In this document: positions 25,875 through 39,268 of the stretch, one piece after another
How positions within the stretch are numbered: position 1 is the first letter of the stretch
How the letters are laid out: the number at the start of each line of letters is the position of its first letter
Origin: Hymenobacter volaticus
Lineage (GTDB): Bacteria > Bacteroidota > Bacteroidia > Cytophagales > Hymenobacteraceae
Assembly (NCBI RefSeq): GCF_022921055.1
Contig: NZ_CP095061.1
Location: 3,511,501 to 3,575,500, forward strand
Length of the DNA stretch: 64,000 bases
Reading direction: 5' to 3'
Position numbers and translations under genes: made by a program
Notes under the pieces: model-generated
The model's database searches: none
The model's input: the letters and a program-made list of their open reading frames with translations, nothing else
What the model was told of the DNA's origin: nothing

Positions 25875-27740
25875 ATGAGTAAGCTGATAGTTTCCGGCGT
25901 GAACGTACGGCAGGTTTTGAGCATGCTGTTGCTTTTGTGTTGCAGTTGGAACCCAATGGTTTCTGGTGTGGCGGCCCAATCACTGAGCATGCTACGCGCC
26001 GATGGCCCAACCATTTTGGACGCTAACAACCGCCCAGTAGTATTGCGTGGAATAAACGTTGGCGGTTGGCTTCTGCAAGAAAGCTACATCCTTGAAACCG
26101 ACTCGCTTAACTCGCAATGGCGCATACAACAAGCTATGCTGCGCACCATGCCAGAAGCGGCCGTAGAGGACTTTTACCGCCAGTACCGAGCTAACTATAT
26201 CACGAAGGCAGACATTGATTTCATTGCCAAGCAAGGCTTCAACTGCGTGCGCCTACCGTTTCATTACGACTTATTCTTGACAGCTCAGCAGCGCCGAGCC
26301 CGCACCAAGGCCTTGCAAAACCCTAAGAACGTGGAAGGCTACGTGCAAGCTCTTAGCACGTGGTACGACCAAAATCAGCTATTCACTGACCCGAAAGCCC
26401 TCGACGGTTTCCGCATCATCGATGATGTACTGAATTGGTGCGCAGCCAACAAGCTCTACGTCATCTTGGATTTACACGCCGCGCCTGGAGGTCAAGGTGC
26501 CGACCGCAACATCAGCGACTGTCTGGTACCACTAGACCTTTGGAAGCGCCGCGACGCTAAAGGTCGCCTGATTTATCAGGACCTGACCGTGCGTCTGTGG
26601 GAGAAACTATCGGCCCGCTACAAAGCCGATGCGCGCGTGGCCATGTACGACCTCATTAATGAGCCCAATGGCATGACCACTGCCAACGGCCTCACTGGCA
26701 ACAATTCAGAGCTGAACGTGCTCTATAGCCGACTCATAGATGCCGTACGAAAACAAGGTGACCAGCACCTGTTAATGCTGGAAGGCAACGGATACGGCAA
26801 CGAGTACACCAACCTTTCGCCCGACAAGCTACAGAGCAAAGACAAACGTAACCTGGTGTACAATGCGCATCGCTACTGGTGCCCAAACGACTCGCAAACC
26901 GGCGACCCAAATCCACTACAGATCAATCTTATTCATAACCTAGTTGCCTTCCGCGACCAATGGAAAGTGCCCGTGTGGGTGGGCGAAACGGGCGAAAATT
27001 CCAACGAATGGTTTTCGGCGGCCGTGCAGGAACTGAATGCCCGTAACATTGGGTGGTGCCACTGGACCCTAAAACGCGTAGCGGGCCCGACTAGCTTATT
27101 GCGCGTGCCCGCTTACGGCAGCATACTCACGGCAGAGGGCCGCACGGCCTTGCTGCGCAACAGTTTATTTAGCAACTGTACCATTAATAAAGATGTCATA
27201 GCAGCCCTCACGCAGCCGACTGTGGCGCAACCGTTCACTACGCATACGCTACCCGGCACCATTCAGGCTGCGGATTATGACTTGGGCCGCAACGGCACTG
27301 CGTACTTCGATGAATATGCGGCCCGCACCGATTTCACCAAGCATACTCCACACAACCAAGGTCGCGCCTACCGCAACGACGGGGTAGATATCGAAGCAAT
27401 TACGGATGCGGCTTCCAATGGCTTTGCCGTGGGCCATACCACTGCTGGCGAATGGCTTAACTACACCGTAACTATTCCTAAAGCAGGCACTTTTGCTGTA
27501 CAAGCACGTCTCGTAAATACGACAAAGGAACCGACAAAACTTTCTTTAAAGCTAGATAGTAAGGAAGTTGTAACGACCATTACCGCGGCTTCAAGCGACA
27601 CGTGGCAAACTGTGTCGGGTGGAACGGTGACTTTACCCGCCGGAAAGCACATCCTGCAACTGTATGTGGAGCAGCCGGGAGCCGTAATCAGTTGGCTTCA
27701 GTTTACGGTGCCGGGCAAAGCCGCCCAAGGAGGCCAATAG
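25875..27740 (+). CDS. exported GH5 beta-glucanase with CBM6-like module
   Basis: A 621-residue exported glycosidase with signal peptide (MSKLIVSGVNVRQVLSMLLL, cut near VAAQ). The GH5 domain (about 40-440) starts LRGINVGGWLLQESYI, has the acid/base glutamate in YDLINEPNG and the nucleophile glutamate in VWVGETGENS. The overall pattern is closest to exo-beta-1,3-glucanase-like GH5 enzymes. The C-terminal ~140 residues form a CBM6-type module (IQAADYDLGRNGTAYFDEYA to SWLQFTVPG). No T9SS tail is seen, so it is probably periplasmic or outer-surface by another route. It opens the sugar locus and is 39 bp upstream of the DISM receptor, so the two are likely cotranscribed. Confidence 0.9.
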   Translation: MSKLIVSGVNVRQVLSMLLLLCCSWNPMVSGVAAQSLSMLRADGPTILDANNRPVVLRGINVGGWLLQESYILETDSLNSQWRIQQAMLRTMPEAAVEDFYRQYRANYITKADIDFIAKQGFNCVRLPFHYDLFLTAQQRRARTKALQNPKNVEGYVQALSTWYDQNQLFTDPKALDGFRIIDDVLNWCAANKLYVILDLHAAPGGQGADRNISDCLVPLDLWKRRDAKGRLIYQDLTVRLWEKLSARYKADARVAMYDLINEPNGMTTANGLTGNNSELNVLYSRLIDAVRKQGDQHLLMLEGNGYGNEYTNLSPDKLQSKDKRNLVYNAHRYWCPNDSQTGDPNPLQINLIHNLVAFRDQWKVPVWVGETGENSNEWFSAAVQELNARNIGWCHWTLKRVAGPTSLLRVPAYGSILTAEGRTALLRNSLFSNCTINKDVIAALTQPTVAQPFTTHTLPGTIQAADYDLGRNGTAYFDEYAARTDFTKHTPHNQGRAYRNDGVDIEAITDAASNGFAVGHTTAGEWLNYTVTIPKAGTFAVQARLVNTTKEPTKLSLKLDSKEVVTTITAASSDTWQTVSGGTVTLPAGKHILQLYVEQPGAVISWLQFTVPGKAAQGGQ

Positions 27741-27779: not shown

Positions 27780-29798
27780 ATGCCCTGCCCTATCAATTCC
27801 CCCAAACTTTGCAGCCTGACTTATGTCTGGCGCTGGCTGTGGCTTTCGGCCATAGTTCTTCTTCCTGCCACCTCTAGCATTGGTGCGCCCTTCCTTGGTC
27901 CCGAGCAGCCTCTGCAAGTAGAGGCCACCCGCGCTGAGCTCTTCATTGAGCCTTATAACTATAGTGTATTAGAAGATTCCACTGGGCGTCTAACACTGCA
28001 CGATGTCCAGTTGGCCAAGCATGCAACGCGCTTCGTCCTTGGGTCCCGCACTGCTACCAATATGGAGCATCCGGGTTCAACCTATTGGCTGCGCCTTAAT
28101 GTATTAGCTATCGGCCCGCAGCCGCAGCACTGGTACCTGGAACTGTTCGACTCTCACCTCAACAACATCATTTTCTACCCCGATGCTAGCAGTGAGCGGG
28201 GTGAGGTGCATACCGGCGCCGATTGGCCGTTCACGTCGAGACCGTATAGCTACAAAAACTACTTGATGCGTCTGCCGCTCAGCTCAAACCAAGTGCAGAC
28301 GTACTACTTACGGCTTCAGTCTGGTAGTAAGACTAGTTTTTTGTCCCGATTACGCACCGAGCAGGGTATTACCGAGCACTTCCAGACCGAATATGGGTTG
28401 TTGGGTGGCTTCTATGGCATCCTGCTGATTATGGTGGTGTACAACTTCTGCCTGTTCTTTTTCACTGGCGAGCAAACGTATTTGCGCTACGTGGGATACG
28501 TGCTGAGTTGCAGCCTCGTGTTTTTGTCAGAAGACGGATTAGGATTTCAGTATTTGTGGCCTAAGTATCCGTGGCTCAACAAAGTGGTGGAGGTAGGTTC
28601 GCCGCCACTGCTGCTGCTGACATTCGGCTATTATGCGCGCCAGTTTTTGGACACGGCGCAGCGCCTGCCGCAGTATGACCGTTGGTTGCGGACTGTAATT
28701 TTGCTTACCGTAGTGGTATTGATGCTTGATGCTCTGTGGTGGAAATCAGACATAGGTATTTGGTTATACACATTGCCGTACGGTATGCTGTTTTACGCGG
28801 CCCTGCGAGTATGGCAACGTGGGTTCCAGCCGGCACGCTTCATTCTGCTTTCTCACTCCTTAGTAGCCGTTAGCGTGCTATTTCTGCTATTGCGGAAGCT
28901 CGGAATCAATACGTTCACAAATACCTACACGGTGTATAGCATGAATGCGGCCTTCGTGCTGGAAGTGGTGGTACTTTCCTATGCGTTAGGCAGCAAAATC
29001 AAAACGATTCAGGAATCAACGTTGCGGGCGCAACACCGTTTGGTGAAGCAGTTGCGCAAAAAACAACACGTGCAGGAACAACTTGTCGAACAGCTTCGCC
29101 AGAACGAGGAGTTGAAAGATCAGTTGAACTCCGAGTTGGAAAAATTGGTGGCGCAGCGCACGCAGGAGCTGCAGCAGCAAGGCGAAACTATTGCGGCCCA
29201 AAATCGGGAACTGTTGCAAGCCAATGGGCTGCTAGCACTGCAGTCAGCGGCCATCGAAAAGCTGAATACTGATTTGCAGTTGGATTTGCAAAAGGCCCAA
29301 ACAGCCAGGGTACTTTCGCAGGAAGTGGACTTCGGCGAGTTCAGTCAGATCTACCCCGACAAGGATGCCTGCTTGACCTACCTTGCTGACTTGAAATGGG
29401 CGCACGGCTACCACTGCCGCAAGTGTGGCCACGACAACTACTGCGAAGGACGAGAGCCTCATTCGCGCCGTTGTACCCGCTGCCGTTACGTGGAATCGGC
29501 TACTGCTTACACACTGTTGCAGAAGTGTAAGTTCTCTATCGTCAAGGCATTTTATGCGGTGTTTTTGTTGCATACGCACAAAGGCAACTATTCAGCTCAA
29601 GAGCTTTCACGGGTACTGGATTTGCGCCGGGCTACGTGTTGGAGCTTCAGCCAGAAGGTAGGTGATGCTATTCGCCGGCAGGTTGCTGAACATCCAGAAG
29701 ATGAAAGCTGGACCCGTTTGCTACTAGATGACTCCGGCAACGAAAGCGATGAGAGCAGCGACGAAACAGCCACCTTGGCAACCGGAACTTCACACTAG
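27780..29798 (+). CDS. 7TMR-DISM receptor fused to IS1595-type transposase zinc ribbon and HTH
   Basis: A 672-residue membrane protein (ATG at 27780; one ATG 30 bases upstream). In order: signal peptide, extracytoplasmic 7TMR-DISM sensor domain (about 45-190, FIEPYNYSVLEDSTG, YWLRLNV), seven-helix 7TMR-DISM membrane domain (about 200-400), long Gln/Glu coiled coil (about 410-515), then a zinc ribbon with two CxxC pairs (Cys546/549 in CRKCGHDNY, Cys565/568 in CTRCRY) and a helical region LQKCKFSIVKAFYAVFLLHT to RATCWSFSQKVGDAIRR. The last two parts match the N-terminal DNA-binding half of IS1595/ISXO2 transposases, with no DDE nuclease. The tail is acidic (DDSGNESDESSDE). DISM domains bind carbohydrates or other ligands, so I infer a membrane-bound sensor that touches DNA and controls the adjacent SusC/SusD genes. 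The function is inference; the domains are plain. Confidence 0.88.
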   Translation: MPCPINSPKLCSLTYVWRWLWLSAIVLLPATSSIGAPFLGPEQPLQVEATRAELFIEPYNYSVLEDSTGRLTLHDVQLAKHATRFVLGSRTATNMEHPGSTYWLRLNVLAIGPQPQHWYLELFDSHLNNIIFYPDASSERGEVHTGADWPFTSRPYSYKNYLMRLPLSSNQVQTYYLRLQSGSKTSFLSRLRTEQGITEHFQTEYGLLGGFYGILLIMVVYNFCLFFFTGEQTYLRYVGYVLSCSLVFLSEDGLGFQYLWPKYPWLNKVVEVGSPPLLLLTFGYYARQFLDTAQRLPQYDRWLRTVILLTVVVLMLDALWWKSDIGIWLYTLPYGMLFYAALRVWQRGFQPARFILLSHSLVAVSVLFLLLRKLGINTFTNTYTVYSMNAAFVLEVVVLSYALGSKIKTIQESTLRAQHRLVKQLRKKQHVQEQLVEQLRQNEELKDQLNSELEKLVAQRTQELQQQGETIAAQNRELLQANGLLALQSAAIEKLNTDLQLDLQKAQTARVLSQEVDFGEFSQIYPDKDACLTYLADLKWAHGYHCRKCGHDNYCEGREPHSRRCTRCRYVESATAYTLLQKCKFSIVKAFYAVFLLHTHKGNYSAQELSRVLDLRRATCWSFSQKVGDAIRRQVAEHPEDESWTRLLLDDSGNESDESSDETATLATGTSH

Positions 29799-30488
29799 CA
29801 GAGCGGCTAATCCTATCGAGTTAAGAACTCGAAAAAAAGTGGACAAAATCTTCATTTTTTTACTTGTTTTTTACCCGTCAGTTATCTCTCACCCAGATGT
29901 GACATTCAAGAGCAATTGACGTAGAAAGCGCCTGTAAAGTGGGTGACGTAAGCGTACAAAGTTTTTTGCTACGTAAGCGAAAACGCCCTTTGCAAACGTT
30001 TGGGGCGGGGTTTCCGCTTGATTTTTAAAAATAAGGTCGGGTATATTTGGGCATCCTATCGCTCTTATGTTCTGCCCCACCTATTCCTCCTCTAGCTGTG
30101 TTGTGAGTAAGCACTCACCCCAGTTACACCCATTCTACGTTTTGCTCTTATCTCGCTTGATTGCACAAAGCAAACAAGTCCCGGTTTCTACTGGCTCACC
30201 TAGCACGTTCACCAGCCTAGGATTTGCTTTGTGTAGCAACCGCCTTGCACTCCCAGTTGCTACTGTTTTTCAGCAGTACTCGAACTGCGAGAAAGTACTC
30301 CCCCTTTTTCCTTTCTGAGCTACACCTGACTGATGCGTGGCTGCATTGGCCCGGAGGCTTGCTGTCCTGGCAGCCTGGTAAGGGTATGCTCGTTGCGCTC
30401 TATCTGATTTAATTCTTTTTACGGCTGGCTTTTGCTTTCAGCGGGGAAAGCTAGCGCTATTCAATTCCCACACTTTTCTCCATCACAT
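29799..30488 (+). promoter_or_regulatory. regulatory region and long leader upstream of susC-like gene
   Basis: About 690 bp without a convincing gene. It holds two copies of ACGTAAGCG (29946-29954 and 29971-29979, 25 bp apart), then a promoter match: TTGA at 30018-30021, 20-nt spacer, TATATTTG at 30042-30049. Transcription from there would give a leader of roughly 430 nt before the SusC start at 30489, unusually long. No known riboswitch fold was recognised. Confidence 0.5.
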
Positions 30489-33400
30489 ATGAATCGTACT
30501 CAATACTCGTATTTGGGATTACGGCGCGCAGTACCATTGGCAGCCTGCGGGCTGTTAACGCTATCCGCATCTTTTGCGGAAGCGCGAAACGCCGCTTCCG
30601 TCTCACCTCTCACCACTGTGGCTGACGTTCCGGTGTCGGGCCGCGTAACGGGAGAAAACGGCGACCCTTTGCCAGGGGTTACTATCATCGTGAAAGGCAC
30701 CACACAGGGTATAACCACCAACGCTGATGGTGGCTTCGCGCTCAACGCCCCAGAAGGTTCTACGTTGATATTCAGTTACGTAGGTTTCAGCCGCAAAGAA
30801 GTAACGATTTCGGGCGCTACTACCAGCTTGAATGTTAGTCTGATAGAAGACACCCGAGCCCTGAGCGAGGTAGTAGTAGTAGGCTATGGTACGCAGGAAA
30901 GGGGCAGCGTAACAGGAGCTATTTCATCTGTTGGCTCCGCTGATATCGTGCGGCAGCCGGTACCTGATGCAACGCAGGCTATTCAAGGCAAGGTTTCGGG
31001 CGTAACTATCACCTCAAATGGGGGCGCTCCTGGCGGGGCAGCGGGCACTTCGGTGCGTGTGCGTGGCATTACCTCAGCAGGCTTCAACTCGCCCTTGTAT
31101 GTAGTCGATGGTTTCCCACTGCCGGCTGCTACAGATGGCAACGGCAACGCTACCAACACCGAGCTTACCAACATCAGTCCGAATGACATCGAGACAATTG
31201 ACGTTCTGAAAGATGCTTCAGCCACAGCTATTTACGGGGTACGGGCTGCAAACGGGGTAATTATTATTACCACTAAGCGGGGTAAAGCTGGTCGGACATC
31301 AATCAATTTTGATGCCTACCGGGGCGTGCAAACCGTGGCTCGTAGACTAGACCTGCTCAATGCTGAAGAGTACGCGACTATTAACAATGAAGCCCGTATT
31401 GCGGCCGGACAGCCCATTGCGCTCGAGAAGCTGCGCAATCCTTCTGCACTAGGCGAGGGCACCGATTGGCAGGACCTACTATTCCGCCGAGCCAAGATTC
31501 AGAACTATTCACTTTCTGCAACTGGCGGTAGCGAGAAAGCACAATATGCCCTTTCAGGCACTTACTACCAGCAAGACGGCATTCTCCTCGGTTCTCAATT
31601 CGAACGCTTTACTCTGCGCGCTAATGGCGATGTTCGATTGGGTCGGATTTTTAAAGTAGGTAACAGCATCGCGCTTACTCACTTGAGCGACCGGCAGGTT
31701 CCGACTAATAACGGCGAGTACGGTACGGTGCAACAATTGCTTCGGATGCCGCCTACAGTGCAACCCTACCGGCCCGATGGCTTTTACTATCAGCCCAATA
31801 ACGATGCAGATAACTTTACCGAGGAAAACCCACTTGCTACTGCTCAGCGCGTCGACCAAAAATACACTCGCAACCGAGCCCTCACAACGTTCTACGCCGA
31901 ATTAGAGCCCCTCAAAGGGTTACGCTTCCGCACCAATGTTGGGGCTGACTTCATCTTTGACAATAATAACGCTTTCGCACCCAAGGCACCAGAACTAGAG
32001 GGGTACACTACCCGTCCTACGTACCTGATTGCCAATGCATCGGCTTCGTCGAGCTATGCGCCAACGTACTTGATCGAAAACACAGCGAGCTACGACCATC
32101 TTTTCGACGAAAAGCACCAAGTAACGCTATTGCTTGGTCAGTCAGCTCAGCAGTTCAATTTCAGCAACGTCGTAGCTTCTCGGTCAAATTATACCCGCAA
32201 TGACCTTCGGACCATCAACTCGGGTCCTATTAACACACTGCTAGCCAACGGAGGTACTATCGATACGCCTCGGCGCTTGGCCAGCTACTTTAGCCGTGTT
32301 AACTACGAATTTGCGGGCAAGTATATCTTCCAAGCCACGGCCCGCTACGACGGTTCATCTCGTTTTCAATCAGGTGAGAAATTTGGCTTCTTCCCTGGTG
32401 TATCGGCTGGCTGGCGCATCTCAGAAGAAGATTTCCTCAAAGGCAACAGCGTAGTAAGCAACCTCAAAGTGCGGGCTGGCTACGGGCAGGTTGGTAACGA
32501 GCTCAACGCTGGCCGTTATGCTTACCTGTACTCCGTTAACTTCGGTATCACTTATCCGCTTGGTGACGGTACCCTTCAGCCGGGTGGCGCGCCAACTCGA
32601 TTGGCTAACCCCAACCTCCGTTGGGAGAAAAACGAGCAGACGAACATTGGTATTGATGCTGGATTCCTCGAAAATCGCTTCGAAGCTAGCCTTGACCTTT
32701 ATAGCCGCAACTCGCCTAACCTGATTGCCGGCGTGCCACCTTCCCTGGTATCGGGTACGTACGAATCTGTGGCTACTAACGCTGCTAGTGCTTACAACCG
32801 CGGCTTAGACTTCTCGATTACCTCCCACAACTTTACAGGAGCCAATCAATCACTGGACTGGTCGACGACGCTGAACTTGTCGGCATATAAGACCCGTTTG
32901 GTATCTCTTGGCGCTGGCATTCCTTACAACGGACAAGGTTCTTTGAGCGGCACTATTGTGCGTTATGATGAAGGCTACGCCTTCGGCTCCTTCTATGGCC
33001 TCATTGCCGACGGCTTGATTCAGACGCAGGAAGAACTGACGACTTTGAATACCGGAGCAAACGTGAACAACCCAAAGAACGACTTGTATTATCAGCGGCA
33101 AGCAACAGCCCCTGGCGACATCAAGTTCCGCGACCTGAACGGTGATGGTACTATTACCGACGCCGACCGCACATTCATTGGCAATCCGAACCCCAACTTC
33201 ACCTTCGGCATCACCAATACCCTGAGCTATAAAAACTTTGATTTAAGTTTCTTCATTCAGGGCGTACAGGGGAATGATGTGTATAACCTCAACCGCTATA
33301 TCACGGAGAATGCTCTCTATGGTACTACCAACGGCACTACTCGCATCCTGAACCGCTGGACTGGCCCCGGTACCAGCAACGATGTACCCCGTGCCATTGT

Positions 33401-33674
33401 GGGTGACCCCAACGGTAACCTACGGGTATCAACTCACTACATTGAAGATGGCTCCTATGTGCGCCTCAAGAACCTAACGTTTGGCTACACGTTGCCACGC
33501 ACCCTGATGAGTCGCATTTCAGCTAATCAGGTGCGGGTGTACTTCACGGCCCAAAACCTACTGACGCTGACCAAATACACCGGTTATGACCCAGAAGTAA
33601 GTGCTAGCGGCGTCGACCAGGGCATTTATCCGCAGGCGCGTGTATTCATGGGCGGCATCAACATTGGGTTCTAA
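30489..33674 (+). CDS. SusC/RagA-type TonB-dependent outer-membrane transporter
   Basis: A 1061-residue outer-membrane importer starting at the ATG at 30489. After the signal peptide comes a CarboxypepD_reg-like domain (VSGRVTGENGDPLPGVTIIV), then the SusC plug with the TonB-proximal VVVGYGTQERGSVTGAISSV, the RVRGITSAGFNSPLYVVDGF element and the IDVLKDASATAIYGVRAANG signature, then a 22-strand barrel ending YPQARVFMGGINIGF. It imports oligosaccharides delivered by its SusD partner, powered by TonB-ExbBD. It lacks an N-terminal secretin/STN signalling domain, so control through an anti-sigma factor is unlikely. It is followed by susD with 26 bp between them. Substrate inferred from the linked GH16, GH5 and GH30 enzymes: beta-glucan oligosaccharides. 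Confidence 0.97.
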   Translation: MNRTQYSYLGLRRAVPLAACGLLTLSASFAEARNAASVSPLTTVADVPVSGRVTGENGDPLPGVTIIVKGTTQGITTNADGGFALNAPEGSTLIFSYVGFSRKEVTISGATTSLNVSLIEDTRALSEVVVVGYGTQERGSVTGAISSVGSADIVRQPVPDATQAIQGKVSGVTITSNGGAPGGAAGTSVRVRGITSAGFNSPLYVVDGFPLPAATDGNGNATNTELTNISPNDIETIDVLKDASATAIYGVRAANGVIIITTKRGKAGRTSINFDAYRGVQTVARRLDLLNAEEYATINNEARIAAGQPIALEKLRNPSALGEGTDWQDLLFRRAKIQNYSLSATGGSEKAQYALSGTYYQQDGILLGSQFERFTLRANGDVRLGRIFKVGNSIALTHLSDRQVPTNNGEYGTVQQLLRMPPTVQPYRPDGFYYQPNNDADNFTEENPLATAQRVDQKYTRNRALTTFYAELEPLKGLRFRTNVGADFIFDNNNAFAPKAPELEGYTTRPTYLIANASASSSYAPTYLIENTASYDHLFDEKHQVTLLLGQSAQQFNFSNVVASRSNYTRNDLRTINSGPINTLLANGGTIDTPRRLASYFSRVNYEFAGKYIFQATARYDGSSRFQSGEKFGFFPGVSAGWRISEEDFLKGNSVVSNLKVRAGYGQVGNELNAGRYAYLYSVNFGITYPLGDGTLQPGGAPTRLANPNLRWEKNEQTNIGIDAGFLENRFEASLDLYSRNSPNLIAGVPPSLVSGTYESVATNAASAYNRGLDFSITSHNFTGANQSLDWSTTLNLSAYKTRLVSLGAGIPYNGQGSLSGTIVRYDEGYAFGSFYGLIADGLIQTQEELTTLNTGANVNNPKNDLYYQRQATAPGDIKFRDLNGDGTITDADRTFIGNPNPNFTFGITNTLSYKNFDLSFFIQGVQGNDVYNLNRYITENALYGTTNGTTRILNRWTGPGTSNDVPRAIVGDPNGNLRVSTHYIEDGSYVRLKNLTFGYTLPRTLMSRISANQVRVYFTAQNLLTLTKYTGYDPEVSASGVDQGIYPQARVFMGGINIGF

Positions 33675-33700: not shown

Positions 33701-35251
33701 ATGACTATCTCTAAATTCACCTGTAGCACCGCCTTCCTCTTAACATTGGGGTTGCTGACAGGTTGCTCCGAAGATTTTCTAGAAGAAGCGCCTGCTGACC
33801 AAATAACGGACGCTAACTTCTACCAGACGGAAACCGACGCTGTTCAGGCTACTACGGCTATCTACGGCGAACTCAACAAAGAAGGCCAGTACAATATGGC
33901 CATGTGGGCCTTTGATATGTGGGCTGATATTTCTAGCACTGGCGCCGACGACGGCAACGATGGCAAGGAGTACAAGCAGCTTGAGGCTTTTAGCATCCCA
34001 ACCACAAACGATGTAGCCAACCGTCTTTGGGGTGGCTCGTTCGTGGGCATTCAGCGAGCCAACATCGTCATCCAGAAGGTTCCAGGCATTCAGAACATCG
34101 ATCCCACTGTTCAGAAACGTTGCATAGGCGAAGCGCAATTTTTACGGGCCAAATACTACTTCGATTTAGTACGAGCTTACGGCGATGTACCCTTGTTTAC
34201 AGCGCCGCCCACTAGCCCGGCAGCCGTTAATATTCCGCGTACCCCAGTTGCGGAAGTGTACAAGCAGATCGAGCAGGATTTAATTGATGCCTTTGGCAAC
34301 CTGCAACCCGCCTACACCGCAAATGCCGATCTAGGTCGGGCTACCAAGTGGGCCGCAGCCGGCCTTCTAGCCAAAGTCTATATCACCGAAGGCAAGAAAA
34401 CCGAAGCCGCCCAATGGGCACGTGAGGTGATCAATAACTCGGGCAAGACCATGTGGGCTAATTACGCTGACAACTTCAAGGTTGAGAACGAAAACAGAAA
34501 CGATAAAGAGTCTTTGTTTGAAGTCCAGTTCGTGAACGGCCGCAATCCCGCCGATAACCCATACATTCGGAACACGGTCGGCTCAGCCATGAACGAGTTC
34601 TTCGGACCTCGTGGTGCCAACCAGACGCCTGGTAGCGGTTACGGCTTCAACATCCCGGACCCTGACTTTGTGGATGGTTACGAGGCCGGCGATACACGCA
34701 AAGCGGCGACCATCTTCGTGCCCGGCGATGTATTCCCAGACGGCGCCAAGCAGTCGGCAAAAGCCACCGGTTCCAAACTGGGATACAACGTCAAGAAGTG
34801 GTTTGTTGGCAAGGTGAACACCCAAATTTGGGATTCGGGCCTGAACGTGCCCACAATGCGTCTGGCTGAGGTATACCTGATTTTAGCAGAAGCAGTAGGC
34901 CCAACGGCAGAAGGACGAGAGGCAATTAACAAGGTGCGCCGTCGCTCTTTTGGGCTCCCTATCAACACGGCGTCTGCTGCTCGCGACCTGACGACGACTA
35001 ACCCTACCGAATTTACGGAAGCAGTGTTTCGGGAGCGCAAGTACGAGTTAGCTTTTGAGTTTGACCGCTGGTTTGACCTTAAGCGCCGCGGCAATGCCTA
35101 CACCATTCAGCGCATGACAGAACAGGCCGCATTGCTGAAAGGCTACGAATCCAGTCCGCACGGCATTCCTACGGAAAATAATTTGCTGTTGCCCATTCCG
35201 CAATCGGAAATCGATGCCAACCCAGGGCTGGTTCAGAATCCAGGCTACTAA
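33701..35251 (+). CDS. SusD/RagB-type surface glycan-binding lipoprotein
   Basis: A 516-residue SusD homologue. The lipoprotein signal ends LLTGCSEDFLEEAPADQITD, with the lipobox cysteine near residue 23 and the typical LE-P-D-TD-NF opening of the mature protein. The N-terminal TPR-like helices include QFLRAKYYFDLVRAYGDVPL, a hallmark of the family, and the C-terminal part has AVFRERKYELAFEFDRWFDL and LLPIPQSEIDANPGLVQNPGY. It caps the SusC barrel and captures glycan at the cell surface. It is cotranscribed with SusC upstream and the PKD lipoprotein downstream. Confidence 0.97.
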   Translation: MTISKFTCSTAFLLTLGLLTGCSEDFLEEAPADQITDANFYQTETDAVQATTAIYGELNKEGQYNMAMWAFDMWADISSTGADDGNDGKEYKQLEAFSIPTTNDVANRLWGGSFVGIQRANIVIQKVPGIQNIDPTVQKRCIGEAQFLRAKYYFDLVRAYGDVPLFTAPPTSPAAVNIPRTPVAEVYKQIEQDLIDAFGNLQPAYTANADLGRATKWAAAGLLAKVYITEGKKTEAAQWAREVINNSGKTMWANYADNFKVENENRNDKESLFEVQFVNGRNPADNPYIRNTVGSAMNEFFGPRGANQTPGSGYGFNIPDPDFVDGYEAGDTRKAATIFVPGDVFPDGAKQSAKATGSKLGYNVKKWFVGKVNTQIWDSGLNVPTMRLAEVYLILAEAVGPTAEGREAINKVRRRSFGLPINTASAARDLTTTNPTEFTEAVFRERKYELAFEFDRWFDLKRRGNAYTIQRMTEQAALLKGYESSPHGIPTENNLLLPIPQSEIDANPGLVQNPGY

Positions 35252-35283
35252 CGGCTTTGTGCAACGACTTCAACCTGACATTT

Positions 35284-36084
35284 ATGAAAAATACGTGGAA
35301 TAAAGCGGCAATCTGGGTGCTAATGAGCAGTTCAGTACTTGTTGCTTCTTGCGATAAAGAAGATCAAGGAGAGCTGAAAGGGCCTTTACCTACGGCTAGC
35401 TTTACTGTTTCGGCTGTTAAAACGGTGGGGCTCACCAATGAAGTCACTTTCACCAGCACTAGTACTGATGCTTTTCTGTACAAGTGGGATTTTGGCGATG
35501 GTACAACTGGAACGGGTCAGACCATAACTCATAAGTATCAACGGGGTGGCACCGTTCAAGCGCAGCTTACTGCGGCCGGGCCCAGAGGATATACTGTTTC
35601 TGACAAGCAGGATGTGGCACTCCCCGAAATTGCTACCATTGTAAAGCAGTTGTTGACGGGTGGATCAACTAAAACCTGGAAGTTTGATAATGCTGCTGAA
35701 GCACCTATTATCGTCGGAACCGAAGGGAATCCGGGGCAGTACTACGCGGGTGGACCTGCCAATGGCCTGCCTACCTGTCAGTCCGATGATGAATATACTT
35801 TCACGGCAGCTAATGTTCTCACCTACGATGCCAAGGCTGGGACGTTGGTAGCTCCGGCTCAAAGCTGCGAGGCGCCGCGCTCTGGTACTTCAGACTTTAC
35901 GTTCGGACCAGCTACTGGCCAGGGATATGCCATGCTTGAGCTGAAACGAGCTGGCTCTTTTATCGGTGTGACTGACGTACCCGATCAAACTTACCGCATC
36001 ATCGACATCAGCGCAACAAAGATGGTGCTGCGGGCTGGCAAACCTGGAGGCACGGTATTTCAATACAAGATGATTGCCAAGTAG
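35284..36084 (+). CDS. PKD-domain surface lipoprotein, probable glycan-binding protein
   Basis: A 266-residue lipoprotein from the ATG at 35284 (signal ending VLVASC, cysteine near 23). A PKD domain follows (TASFTVSAVKTVGLTNEVTF, YKWDFGDGTTGTG, THKYQRGG). The remaining ~150 residues are a beta-rich domain with KTWKFDNAAEAPIIVG and RIIDISATKMVLRAGKPGG, resembling the C-terminal domains found with surface glycan-binding proteins and GH16 modules in SusC/D loci. It takes the usual SusE/F-like position, 33 bp after susD. It probably holds the polysaccharide at the cell surface while the GH16 lipoprotein cuts it. Confidence 0.8.
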   Translation: MKNTWNKAAIWVLMSSSVLVASCDKEDQGELKGPLPTASFTVSAVKTVGLTNEVTFTSTSTDAFLYKWDFGDGTTGTGQTITHKYQRGGTVQAQLTAAGPRGYTVSDKQDVALPEIATIVKQLLTGGSTKTWKFDNAAEAPIIVGTEGNPGQYYAGGPANGLPTCQSDDEYTFTAANVLTYDAKAGTLVAPAQSCEAPRSGTSDFTFGPATGQGYAMLELKRAGSFIGVTDVPDQTYRIIDISATKMVLRAGKPGGTVFQYKMIAK

Positions 36085-36185
36085 CGGGTAGGTGGTAGCA
36101 CTAGTTTAAATTGGTGAATGACGTTCACCTTTATGCTAGTTGCCTACTTATACTCCTCATCCTAACTCGTGAAAGCTCCTACTTT

Positions 36186-37052
36186 ATGAATTCACACCCC
36201 ATGTTTGGGCTACTGCAGAACAAGAATAGGGCTAGCATCTTGCTGGCCCTAACCTTATTTGCTTGCACCGAATCCAAGACTAAGAACATTCCCGCTCCCA
36301 TTCCTACCGTGCCTGCCGTTAATGAGGAGGCGCGCGACTACAGCCAGTATACCACACTGGCGTGGAGCGACGAGTTCGATGCTGGCCCTCTCGATCCAAA
36401 CAAATGGGTGTATGAGTTAGGCGGTGGCGGCTGGGGCAACAACGAGTTGCAGACCTACACCAACTCTGCCGATAACGTAACCGTGACGGGTGGTAACCTT
36501 GTAATACAGGCTCTGCGGCAAGCGGGCAGTAACGCCTACACCTCGGGCCGCCTGATTACCAAGGGCAAGCAAAGCTTCCAATACGGGCGCATCGACGTGC
36601 GGGCCAAAGTGCCCAAAGGCAAAGGGGTGTGGCCCGCTATCTGGATGCTAGGTTCTGATATCGACCAGAACAACTGGCCCCGCTGCGGCGAAATCGACAT
36701 TATGGAGTTGCGTGGCAGCCGCCCGAAAGAGTTGCTATCCACCATGCACTTCGGTAATAGTCCCGCCGAGCACGCTTACAAGGGCACTACGCAAGTGCAG
36801 TCCAATGAGCTTTCCAACGACTTCCACATCTTCTCGGTGGTGCGCAGCAAAAACCAGCTCCGTTTCTTTCTGGATGGGCAGCAGTACTACACCTTCGCGA
36901 GCAGCGACGCCAGCCCTTACCCCTTCAACAACCCGTTTTTTGTTGTGCTAAACCTTGCTATCGGCGGCGACTTTGACGGCAACCCCGATGCCACTACGGT
37001 GTTGCCTCAGCAGATGCAAGTGGATTACGTGCGCTATTATCAGTACAAGTAA
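36186..37052 (+). CDS. GH16 beta-glucanase lipoprotein
   Basis: A 288-residue enzyme from the ATG at 36186; the signal ends LALTLFAC, a probable lipobox, which would anchor it to the cell surface. The single GH16 domain starts TLAWSDEFDAGPLDPNKWVY and carries the catalytic GEIDIMEL motif with both glutamates, GGGGWGNNELQTYT in the cleft and a C-terminal MQVDYVRYYQYK strand. It is a laminarinase-type endo-beta-1,3-glucanase, related to the secreted one at 17.6 kb but without CBM6 and sorting tail. It is the fourth gene of the SusC/D transcript and probably makes the first cuts in surface-bound glucan. Confidence 0.93.
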   Translation: MNSHPMFGLLQNKNRASILLALTLFACTESKTKNIPAPIPTVPAVNEEARDYSQYTTLAWSDEFDAGPLDPNKWVYELGGGGWGNNELQTYTNSADNVTVTGGNLVIQALRQAGSNAYTSGRLITKGKQSFQYGRIDVRAKVPKGKGVWPAIWMLGSDIDQNNWPRCGEIDIMELRGSRPKELLSTMHFGNSPAEHAYKGTTQVQSNELSNDFHIFSVVRSKNQLRFFLDGQQYYTFASSDASPYPFNNPFFVVLNLAIGGDFDGNPDATTVLPQQMQVDYVRYYQYK

Positions 37053-37252: not shown

Positions 37253-37750
37253 ATGGGCCGTCAAAAACAGTTTTTTCGGTTGTCGGCTGCCGAGCATCAG
37301 GAGGTGCAGCACTACCTGCAGCAAGAGCAGTTGGTGCGTCGGCAAATCAACCGAGCGCAGATGCTGCTCGACTGGCATGTGGGCTACTCAGCCACTGAAA
37401 CCGCTCAACGCTTAGCCATGACCGAAGGTCGGGTATATGCGTTGCGGCGGGCATACCAGCGCCAGGGACTTACTTCTTACCTCAACACGCATCCGCAGGG
37501 AGGAGCCCCCACCAAGCTTACGCCCACCGTGGAAGCCGCTTTACTCGCTCTGCTTTCCCGCCGCAATGCCGACTCGGCCCGCTACTGGACGCTGCGTCAG
37601 TTGGCAAACTACTTGGTGGAAAAAGGCCATGCTAAATCGATTTGTCCGGTTACGGTGAGCAAGGCGCTACAACGACTCCAGACGCTTCTTGTCTCTTCCG
37701 ACTCCGGCAATGAGGTGGCGCAGCCGTCCTACCCCGGTGAGCACAACTGA
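37253..37750 (+). CDS. HTH-only protein of IS630-transposase type, no nuclease domain
   Basis: A 165-residue protein starting MGRQKQFFRLSAAEHQEV. It has two helix-turn-helix units in the order seen in IS630/Tc1-like transposases: the first around LLDWHVGYSATETAQRLAMT with VYALRRAYQRQGL, then the GGAPTKLTP linker, then a winged helix RYWTLRQLANYLVEKGH to PVTVSKALQRL. The DDE catalytic domain is absent, and only 48 bp separate the stop from the next gene, so nothing is hidden by a frameshift. The tail SSDSGNEVAQP recalls the DDSGNESDE tail of the DISM fusion 8 kb upstream. It lies between the GH16 and GH30 genes, so I infer a domesticated transcription factor of the sugar locus. Confidence 0.8.
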   Translation: MGRQKQFFRLSAAEHQEVQHYLQQEQLVRRQINRAQMLLDWHVGYSATETAQRLAMTEGRVYALRRAYQRQGLTSYLNTHPQGGAPTKLTPTVEAALLALLSRRNADSARYWTLRQLANYLVEKGHAKSICPVTVSKALQRLQTLLVSSDSGNEVAQPSYPGEHN

Positions 37751-37795: not shown

Positions 37796-39268
37796 ATGAT
37801 GCTTCCCTCTCGAACAGCCTTCCTCACGCTGCTGGCTGGTATTCTTGTCACTTCAGTTCAGGCCCAGAAAGCCGCTCCTACCGCCAAGCCTTATTCTGCA
37901 GTTGGTAAGCAGGTGCAAGTGTATACCACCGCCAACAACACGGCGCTACACCTGACTGCTACCGACAAACTCACTTTCAAGGAAGTAGGCCAACCTTTGG
38001 AAACGCAGCCCACCGTTTTTGTCGACCCCAACCACACTTTTCAAACAATGCTCGGCATTGGCGGCGCCATGACCGATGCCGCTGCCGAAACGTTTGACAA
38101 ACTGCCTAAAGCTCAGCAGCAAGAGTTTTTGCAGGCCTACTACAGCCCTACCGCAGGTATTGGCTACACGCTGGCCCGCACCAGTATCCACAGCACCGAC
38201 TTTTCCAGCGGCAGCTACACCTACGTGGCCGACAATGATAAGGCCTTGAAAACCTTCAGCGTTAAGCACGACCAGCAGTATCGGATTCCGTTTATCAAGC
38301 AGGCACAAGCGGCAGCAGGCGGCAAGCTGACAATGTACGTGAGTCCGTGGAGCCCGCCCGCTTGGATGAAAGACACCAAGAACATGCTGCAAGGCGGTAA
38401 GTTACTGCCGGAGTTCCGCCAAACTTGGGCCGACTATTATGTTAAGTTCATTCAGGCCTACGAGCAGCAAGGCATTCCTATCTGGGGTCTGACAGTGCAA
38501 AATGAGCCCATGGCCAAGCAAAAGTGGGAGTCGTGCTTATTCACCGCGGAAGACGAGCGGGACTTCGTCAAAGGATACCTCGGTCCTACGTTGAAAAAAG
38601 CGGGTTTCAGCAGCAAGAAGCTAATCGGATGGGACCACAACCGTGACCTGATGTACCAACGGGCCAGCACCTTGTTCGATGATCCCGAAGCCAGCCAATA
38701 CTATTGGGGCTTAGGCTTTCACTGGTACGAAACGTGGACCGGCTCCGCTATGCAGTTCGACAACCTGCGCCGCGTGCACGAGACCTACCCTACTAAAAAC
38801 CTGATTTTCACTGAGGGGTGCGTCGAGAACTTTCAGTTCAGCGGCATCAACGACTGGAAGCTCGGCGAACGGTATGGTAACTCGATGATCAACGACTTCA
38901 ACGCCGGCACCGTAGCCTGGACCGACTGGAACGTGCTGCTCGACGAGACAGGCGGCCCCAACCACGTCGGCAACTTTTGCTACGCCCCCATCATTGGCGA
39001 CACCAAGAGCGGCAAGTTGCTTTACACCAACGCTTACTACTACATCGGCCACTTCTCGAAATTCATCCGACCCGGTGCCAAGCGCATTGCCACTGCCGCT
39101 AGCCGCGACGTACTACAATCCACCGCCTTCCTCAACACCGATGGCAAAGTGGCGGTGGTAGTTATGAATAGCACCGACCAAGAGCAGCCTTTTCAGCTCT
39201 GGATTAAAGGGCAAGCCGCCGCTGCCAGTAGCCGCCCGCATTCCATCATGACGATGGTGATAAATTAG
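37796..39268 (+). CDS. exported GH30 glycosidase (beta-1,6-glucanase / glucosylceramidase family)
   Basis: A 490-residue exported enzyme with signal peptide (cut after SVQA). GH30 landmarks are the N-terminal GIGGAMTDAAAETFDKLP, the ARTSIHSTDFSSGSYTY stretch, the acid/base glutamate in LTVQNEPMAKQKWESC, and the nucleophile glutamate in IFTEGCVE. A small C-terminal beta domain follows (FLNTDGKVAVVVMNSTDQEQ). Bacteroidota GH30 subfamily 1/3 enzymes linked to laminarin loci are typically endo-beta-1,6-glucanases, which would remove the branches of laminarin or fungal glucan. It is the last gene of the locus, 45 bp after the HTH gene, and is followed by a terminator. Confidence 0.92.
   Translation: MMLPSRTAFLTLLAGILVTSVQAQKAAPTAKPYSAVGKQVQVYTTANNTALHLTATDKLTFKEVGQPLETQPTVFVDPNHTFQTMLGIGGAMTDAAAETFDKLPKAQQQEFLQAYYSPTAGIGYTLARTSIHSTDFSSGSYTYVADNDKALKTFSVKHDQQYRIPFIKQAQAAAGGKLTMYVSPWSPPAWMKDTKNMLQGGKLLPEFRQTWADYYVKFIQAYEQQGIPIWGLTVQNEPMAKQKWESCLFTAEDERDFVKGYLGPTLKKAGFSSKKLIGWDHNRDLMYQRASTLFDDPEASQYYWGLGFHWYETWTGSAMQFDNLRRVHETYPTKNLIFTEGCVENFQFSGINDWKLGERYGNSMINDFNAGTVAWTDWNVLLDETGGPNHVGNFCYAPIIGDTKSGKLLYTNAYYYIGHFSKFIRPGAKRIATAASRDVLQSTAFLNTDGKVAVVVMNSTDQEQPFQLWIKGQAAAASSRPHSIMTMVIN

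Follow-up and report, generated by a model that had tools for sequence, protein, structure and literature searches.

SusR, hybrid two-component systems (HTCS) and pairs of extracytoplasmic function (ECF) sigma and anti-sigma factors are known regulators of polysaccharide utilisation loci. ChiS governs chitin use, the receptor RetS ends in histidine-kinase modules, and TldR, a case of reused transposon machinery, descends from TnpB. One study lists 7TMR-DISM as a domain that occurs in architectures carrying the ChiS DNA-binding domain (PMC8092284), and the available text of a paper on signalling helices describes helical linkers that join sensor and output domains, with links to helix-turn-helix (HTH) domains being rare (PMC1592074). 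Here we analysed a window of 64,000 nucleotides from Hymenobacter volaticus (contig NZ_CP095061.1, positions 3,511,501 to 3,575,500; coordinates below are counted from its first nucleotide), in which a gene upstream of a susC/susD pair encodes a 7TMR-DISM receptor that ends in the predicted DNA-binding module of a transposase of the insertion sequence (IS) family IS1595. We propose, with a probability of roughly 0.77, that this receptor works as a one-component regulator that is anchored in the membrane and activates glycan loci; DNA binding, ligand, dimerisation and activation are what we infer.

The order of parts claimed from the bare sequence, namely signal peptide, 7TMR-DISM sensor, seven membrane helices, coiled coil and zinc ribbon with HTH but no DDE nuclease, was confirmed by Pfam, NCBIfam and an AlphaFold model (Table 1). 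Pfam places 7TMR-DISMED2 at residues 62-187 (expectation value, E, 9.7e-26), 7TMR-DISM_7TM at residues 205-405 (E 1.6e-42) and Zn_ribbon_IS1595 at residues 527-570, the last with 26.0 bits, barely above its cut-off of 25.4. The NCBIfam IS1595 transposase model matches residues 583-638 (E 1.2e-5) with 25.2 bits, its whole-family cut-off of 75 bits being far higher. Cysteines 546, 549, 565 and 568, those of the zinc ribbon, are invariant across 31 diverse homologues; the extracellular DISMED and the DISM 7TM Pfam models, which define the 7TMR-DISM class, were both found in 31 of 31 family members, and PF12760, the IS1595 N-terminal zinc ribbon, in 29 of them. The receptor's Pfam matches up to E 10 lack the DDE catalytic domain PF12762, and none of its Pfam matches is a kinase, receiver, sigma-factor or anti-sigma domain. 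The AlphaFold model (mean predicted local distance difference test score, pLDDT, 82.7; predicted template modelling score 0.60) comprises an N-terminal helix, a beta-sandwich (45-193), seven helices from residue 194, a long broken helix (382-512, with pLDDT below 70 for about 451-510) and, at 518-637, a ribbon plus helices. Sensor, membrane part and predicted DNA-binding part are hence united in one chain, as in a one-component membrane regulator. Conservation among close homologues is highest in the DNA-binding module, whose mean identity is 78% versus 52% for the sensor. The gene occurs once in the H. volaticus genome, and its longest open frame begins at GTG 27750.

Of the three points on which the original prediction had been staked beforehand, two were examined here, and both came out in its favour: resemblance of residues 540-630 to the N-terminal domains of IS1595 transposases, and a conserved link of the fusion to SusC/SusD loci. 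The resemblance was found with Pfam and NCBIfam, in pairwise identity and in trees. Residues 514-631 are 48% identical to IS1595 transposase P0132 (E 7e-35), and residues 520-631 are 51% identical to an open reading frame (ORF) from a related genome (L141). A protein search with the latter gave 1077 matches; among the 120 of these listed, P0132 included, all but one (P0167) have precomputed IS1595 domains PF12760 and/or PF12762. In the alignment most transposases start, with Met, where the receptor coiled coil finishes (near receptor residue 510), and the receptors terminate before the DDE catalytic core. When 62 receptors were placed in one tree with 42 transposases, distant ones included, 62 of 62 receptors united in one clade with 100/100 support (receptor rows L213, L154, L233 and L146 were excluded, and so were many transposase rows of the earlier tree described below). 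Rooted on the most distant transposase, this clade is nested inside the transposases and neighboured by five rows that come from a different family of Cytophagales; the alignment is short (142 columns) and several branches are long, so that the inner forks are unsure. An earlier tree of 66 receptors and 44 transposases also had every receptor on one side of a branch. Since the receptors form one clade inside the transposases as rooted, one capture suffices, and a single IS1595 capture would be the simplest account of the family. A recent IS insertion was rejected in view of the genus-wide spread, the named relatives in other genera and the single receptor clade. No match to an IS1595 nuclease was found in the H. 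volaticus genome at E 1e-10.

The receptor proved to be one of a large family instead of a local peculiarity, which the original prediction had not foreseen. Of 120 Hymenobacter genomes, 108 gave a match with an E of 0.001 or lower; setting aside four weak ones leaves 104 carriers, which include one genome with the receptor split over contigs (G091) and one in which the ribbon is lost (G093). At the level of the order, a match at E 1e-6 was obtained in 300 of 390 genomes, often with the DISM half alone. Matches spanning query residues from about 40 to 630-650 occur in at least eight further families among the matches listed, and a single genome may have as many as three copies, the maximum that was scored. 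In the phylum, where three candidates were scored per genome, matches reaching the module end were found in 11 of 395 genomes, all in the same class as H. volaticus. The best 80 of 549 confirmed loci, a sample that is not random and includes 27 from Hymenobacter, name relatives in Pedobacter, Chitinophaga, Mucilaginibacter, Arcticibacter, Olivibacter, Pseudarcicella and Flexithrix, besides uncultured bacteria labelled Cytophagaceae and Flavobacteriales. In public records most homologues go by the name "7TM diverse intracellular signaling domain-containing protein" or as hypothetical proteins, a few being called LadS, ATP synthase subunit or chromosome partitioning protein; of the names shown in full none describes a receptor-transposase fusion. 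Two loci stand apart. A second receptor copy in genome G045 (L125), 50% identical to the H. volaticus receptor, has no SusC-cluster gene among its nearest neighbours, and the receptor of G093 (L139) stops after the coiled coil with no SusC/SusD cluster member adjoining; a single deletion may span both losses in the latter.

The link to SusC/SusD was likewise found to be conserved. We compared 98 close loci, that is, the H. volaticus locus and 97 fetched ones, leaving out of this context set 13 genus matches (G006, G027, G028, G029, G081, G083, G084, G091, G096, G097, G102, G107, G109), among them six of the seven genomes with in-frame stops. A gene of the SusC cluster stands one to three ORFs 3' of the receptor in 93 of the 98, and SusD, a PKD protein and glycoside hydrolases (GH) of families GH16, GH3 and GH5 recur. 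For 69 distant loci, after exclusion of four duplicate records and 27 Hymenobacter loci, the next gene on the same strand (at least 150 aa) is SusC in 44, versus 3 of 293 other ORFs there (Fisher 6e-35; the loci are related and hence not independent). SusC was called with a profile from the Hymenobacter cluster, so that distant SusC proteins may be missed, and ORFs were called mechanically (at least 80 aa, overlaps resolved by length), so that some gene counts may be off. Near distant receptors that lack SusC as next gene, GH30, GH81, GH16 or a pectate-lyase-like protein is found in some cases. With 48 matches to SusD across the 7.1 Mb of the H. volaticus genome, adjacency of receptor and SusCD by chance would be rare.

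A conserved promoter element accompanies the receptor. In 95 intergenic regions downstream of it (the 98 receptors minus three without a same-strand SusC or GH3 gene within 2.5 kb downstream), TTGTTTTTTA and AAGYGTA are both far above shuffles, the former mostly 84-87 bp before the latter. AAGYGTA lies 92 or 93 bp upstream of TAnnTTTG, the -7 box consensus of Bacteroidetes promoters, in 82 of the 95, whether SusC or GH3 is the next gene. In 36 distant loci (chosen by hand, non-Hymenobacter with SusC downstream, 27 of them Pedobacter) it lies 91-94 bp upstream of TAnnTTT[AG] in 23. Shuffles under a first-order model gave means of 0.02 and 0.025 loci for the close and the distant set. In addition, AAGCGTAT is present in 33 of the 36 distant loci and, as two copies 91-92 bp apart, in 26; in Pedobacter the second copy stands at about the place of TTGTTTTTTA. 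Spacing deviates in a handful of loci (about 80-81 bp, and 70 bp in one), each time by about one DNA turn less, although these cases are few.

Across the 98 loci, taken at about 20 kb each, 106 of 106 element-promoter pairs are on the receptor strand, and a backwards control gave 0. The gene after the pair is SusC in 48, GH3 in 31, GH5 in 16, GH16 in 5 and another in 2, with none near in 4. In 20 loci (L060, L067 and L077 among them) a second pair is found upstream, before GH5 in 14 and GH16 in 5, which suggests a two-operon regulon. In the whole genome of H. volaticus there is one pair, at 29950-30049, that of this susC promoter. Tallied from genome tables, the pair is present in 99 of the 104 Hymenobacter genomes with the receptor versus 6 of 16 without (Fisher 1.6e-7), the latter being close to the background given by the reversed pattern; of the 99, it is beside the receptor in 85, elsewhere in nine and without listed place in five. 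The conserved element in loci with the receptor adds support for a DNA-bound regulator.

We propose the following course of events only as a model. A RetS-like periplasmic beta-sandwich would sense a piece of a glycan, in this locus probably a beta-glucan, and the seven-helix domain and the coiled coil of a probably dimeric receptor would transmit the change to the inside. There the zinc ribbon and HTH, presumably acquired in a single event from an IS1595 transposase whose nuclease was left behind, would bind AAGYGTA in the cytoplasm and switch on susCD and glycosidase operons close by from a position about 92 bp ahead of the -7 box. The DNA-binding end might act either at the membrane or after proteolysis. 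The original prediction of a membrane-bound one-component regulator is supported by the IS1595 homology and the SusC/D link, and further by the promoter element, while the regulatory act itself we infer. It is likely that one capture event in a 7TMR-DISM receptor gave rise to an entire class of one-component regulators that span the membrane in Bacteroidia, with several copies in some genomes and many dedicated to a neighbouring glycan locus, in which a seven-helix receptor would read sugar outside and contact promoter DNA inside without a relay.

Several observations weigh against this activator. Of the distant receptors 25 of 69 are not directly before SusC, and some have no obvious sugar gene nearby (PriA adjoins L145, and AcrB is near L153). 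The element-promoter pair is absent in 12 of the 98 close loci and lies only away from the receptor in nine genomes (G002, G038, G055, G079, G081, G084, G093, G108, G114), and the reversed control pattern matches 36 of 120 genomes. Nine distant loci in which SusC is the next gene were picked by hand, and in seven of them (L146, L149-L151, L157-L159) no AAGYGTA core was matched within 900 bp with the words used. The site is thus known for part of the family only, and these seven receptors, if they act in the same way, must recognise different sites. A set of 20 distant loci was likewise picked by hand, for diversity, from the matches listed. In-frame stops interrupt the receptor match in at least seven genomes (G006, G027, G028, G081, G084, G105, G107), two of which, G028 and G105, are also without the pair. 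Descent of the operator from transposon ends was rejected: inverted ends were found for some related elements, and five of these, set against three versions of the operator, gave a single strong match in 15 comparisons (10 bases identical, reached in 11 of 2000 shuffles), which was not significant after correction.

A receptor that sits on AAGYGTA without ligand and is released when sugar is sensed, i.e., a repressor, would agree with the same data, which give site conservation and not the direction of control. Repressor sites, however, usually overlap the promoter, whereas this element stands far ahead of the -7 box, from which a constant 92-93 bp separates it in 82 of 95 loci, and the few loci at about 80-81 or 70 bp represent the one-turn steps expected of an activator touching polymerase; we consider repression unlikely. 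Slightly less likely still, another transcription factor might bind AAGYGTA and the receptor act via this partner, with the zinc ribbon as a protein-interaction surface. Zinc ribbons can bind proteins, and the contact between receptor and AAGYGTA is itself a predicted one. Candidate partners would be a gene that lies upstream of the receptor on the other strand in eight close loci (L116, L123, L131, L132, L133, L136, L137, L138), from a cluster whose one scanned member is a PF06580 histidine kinase, and an ORF with HTH_32/HTH_23 domains in the H. volaticus locus, possibly a transposase fragment. A global regulator behind AAGYGTA was judged less likely, the spaced pattern occurring once in the genome and tracking the receptor. 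Finally, stops in a minority of genomes might hint that the fusion is a recent accident or an annotation artefact without function, but this is highly improbable and already contradicted by conservation: two CxxC pairs are kept in 97 of 98 close receptors and 80 of 80 named loci, the receptors form a single clade, and the DNA-binding part is the most conserved.

With adjoining susC/susD and the glycosidases GH5, GH16 and GH30 identified by Pfam, the locus is a polysaccharide utilisation locus, and these enzyme families point to a beta-glucan such as laminarin as its probable substrate. As had been claimed, no HTCS, ECF sigma factor, anti-sigma factor or SusR was found among the ten neighbouring ORFs scanned. 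The HTH_32/HTH_23 ORF mentioned above (165 aa, 37253-37750) lies between GH16 and GH30.

Table 1. Features of the H. volaticus receptor gene, its downstream promoter region and the adjoining glycan locus (window coordinates).
Feature	Position	Strand	Basis or remark
GH5 with CBM6, upstream of receptor	25875..27740	+	Pfam
Putative receptor/transcription-factor fusion gene, 672 aa	27780..29798	+	ORF, Pfam, NCBIfam, AlphaFold model
Probable signal peptide, residues ~1-36	27780..27887	+	hydrophobic stretch, model helix 11-27 (low-confidence model part)
Periplasmic 7TMR-DISMED2 sensor, beta-sandwich, residues 45-193	27912..28358	+	
Seven membrane helices, 7TMR-DISM_7TM, residues 194-405	28359..28994	+	Pfam, model helices
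Coiled-coil linker, residues 406-512	28995..29315	+	model helices 382-470, 474-479, 482-512
IS1595-derived zinc ribbon and three-helix DNA-binding module (predicted), residues 513-640	29316..29699	+	
Conserved T-rich box TTGTTTTTTA	29864..29873	+	in 81/95 intergenic regions
Proposed operator core AAGCGTA	29950..29956	+	conserved word AAGYGTA
-7 box TATATTTG of presumed susC promoter	30042..30049	+	92 bp from operator core
SusC-type TonB-dependent transporter	30432..33674	+	Pfam
SusD-type glycan-binding lipoprotein	33701..35251	+	Pfam
PKD-domain protein	35257..36084	+	Pfam
GH16 glucanase	36111..37052	+	Pfam
GH30 glycosidase	37796..39268	+	Pfam

If our reading is correct, the receptor represents a new regulator class among the Bacteroidota controls of glycan loci, may account for susCD pairs without a recognised regulator, and provides a bacterial example in which the DNA-binding domain of a transposase has been converted into a transcription factor linked to a receptor. 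With the operator prediction defined, its role is testable at once. A seven-transmembrane fold with a direct tether to DNA raises a mechanical question as well, that of membrane-bound action from a site about 92 bp off the -7 box.

No description of a 7TMR-DISM/IS1595 fusion was found in the open-licence PubMed Central literature, which leaves subscription papers and outside preprints uncovered, and the family is apparently undescribed. The reuse of transposon DNA-recognition machinery is shared with TldR, which is RNA-guided and phage-encoded (PMC13418256), and with the captures of transposase HTH domains in eukaryotes (PMC12062965); the available parts of both sources mention no bacterial membrane receptor. 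ChiS-family regulators are alike in uniting a membrane sensor and a DNA-binding domain in one protein, but their DNA-binding domain is unlike that of the receptor, and SusCD is not mentioned in the available sections of PMC8092284. RetS, whose periplasmic domain has been solved (3jyb/2xbz), has a similar sensor, whereas the receptor described here ends in a transposase DNA-binding module. SusR, HTCS and ECF sigma/anti-sigma pairs resemble it in their position beside susCD and in their presumed role; HTCS and ECF systems, however, have kinase or sigma-factor domains, of which the receptor's Pfam matches contain none. IS1595 transposases (PF12760 and PF12762) share the zinc ribbon and HTH at 48-51% identity in the two full-module matches compared, but carry a DDE catalytic domain, which is absent from the receptor, whose module is fused to a 7TMR-DISM sensor.
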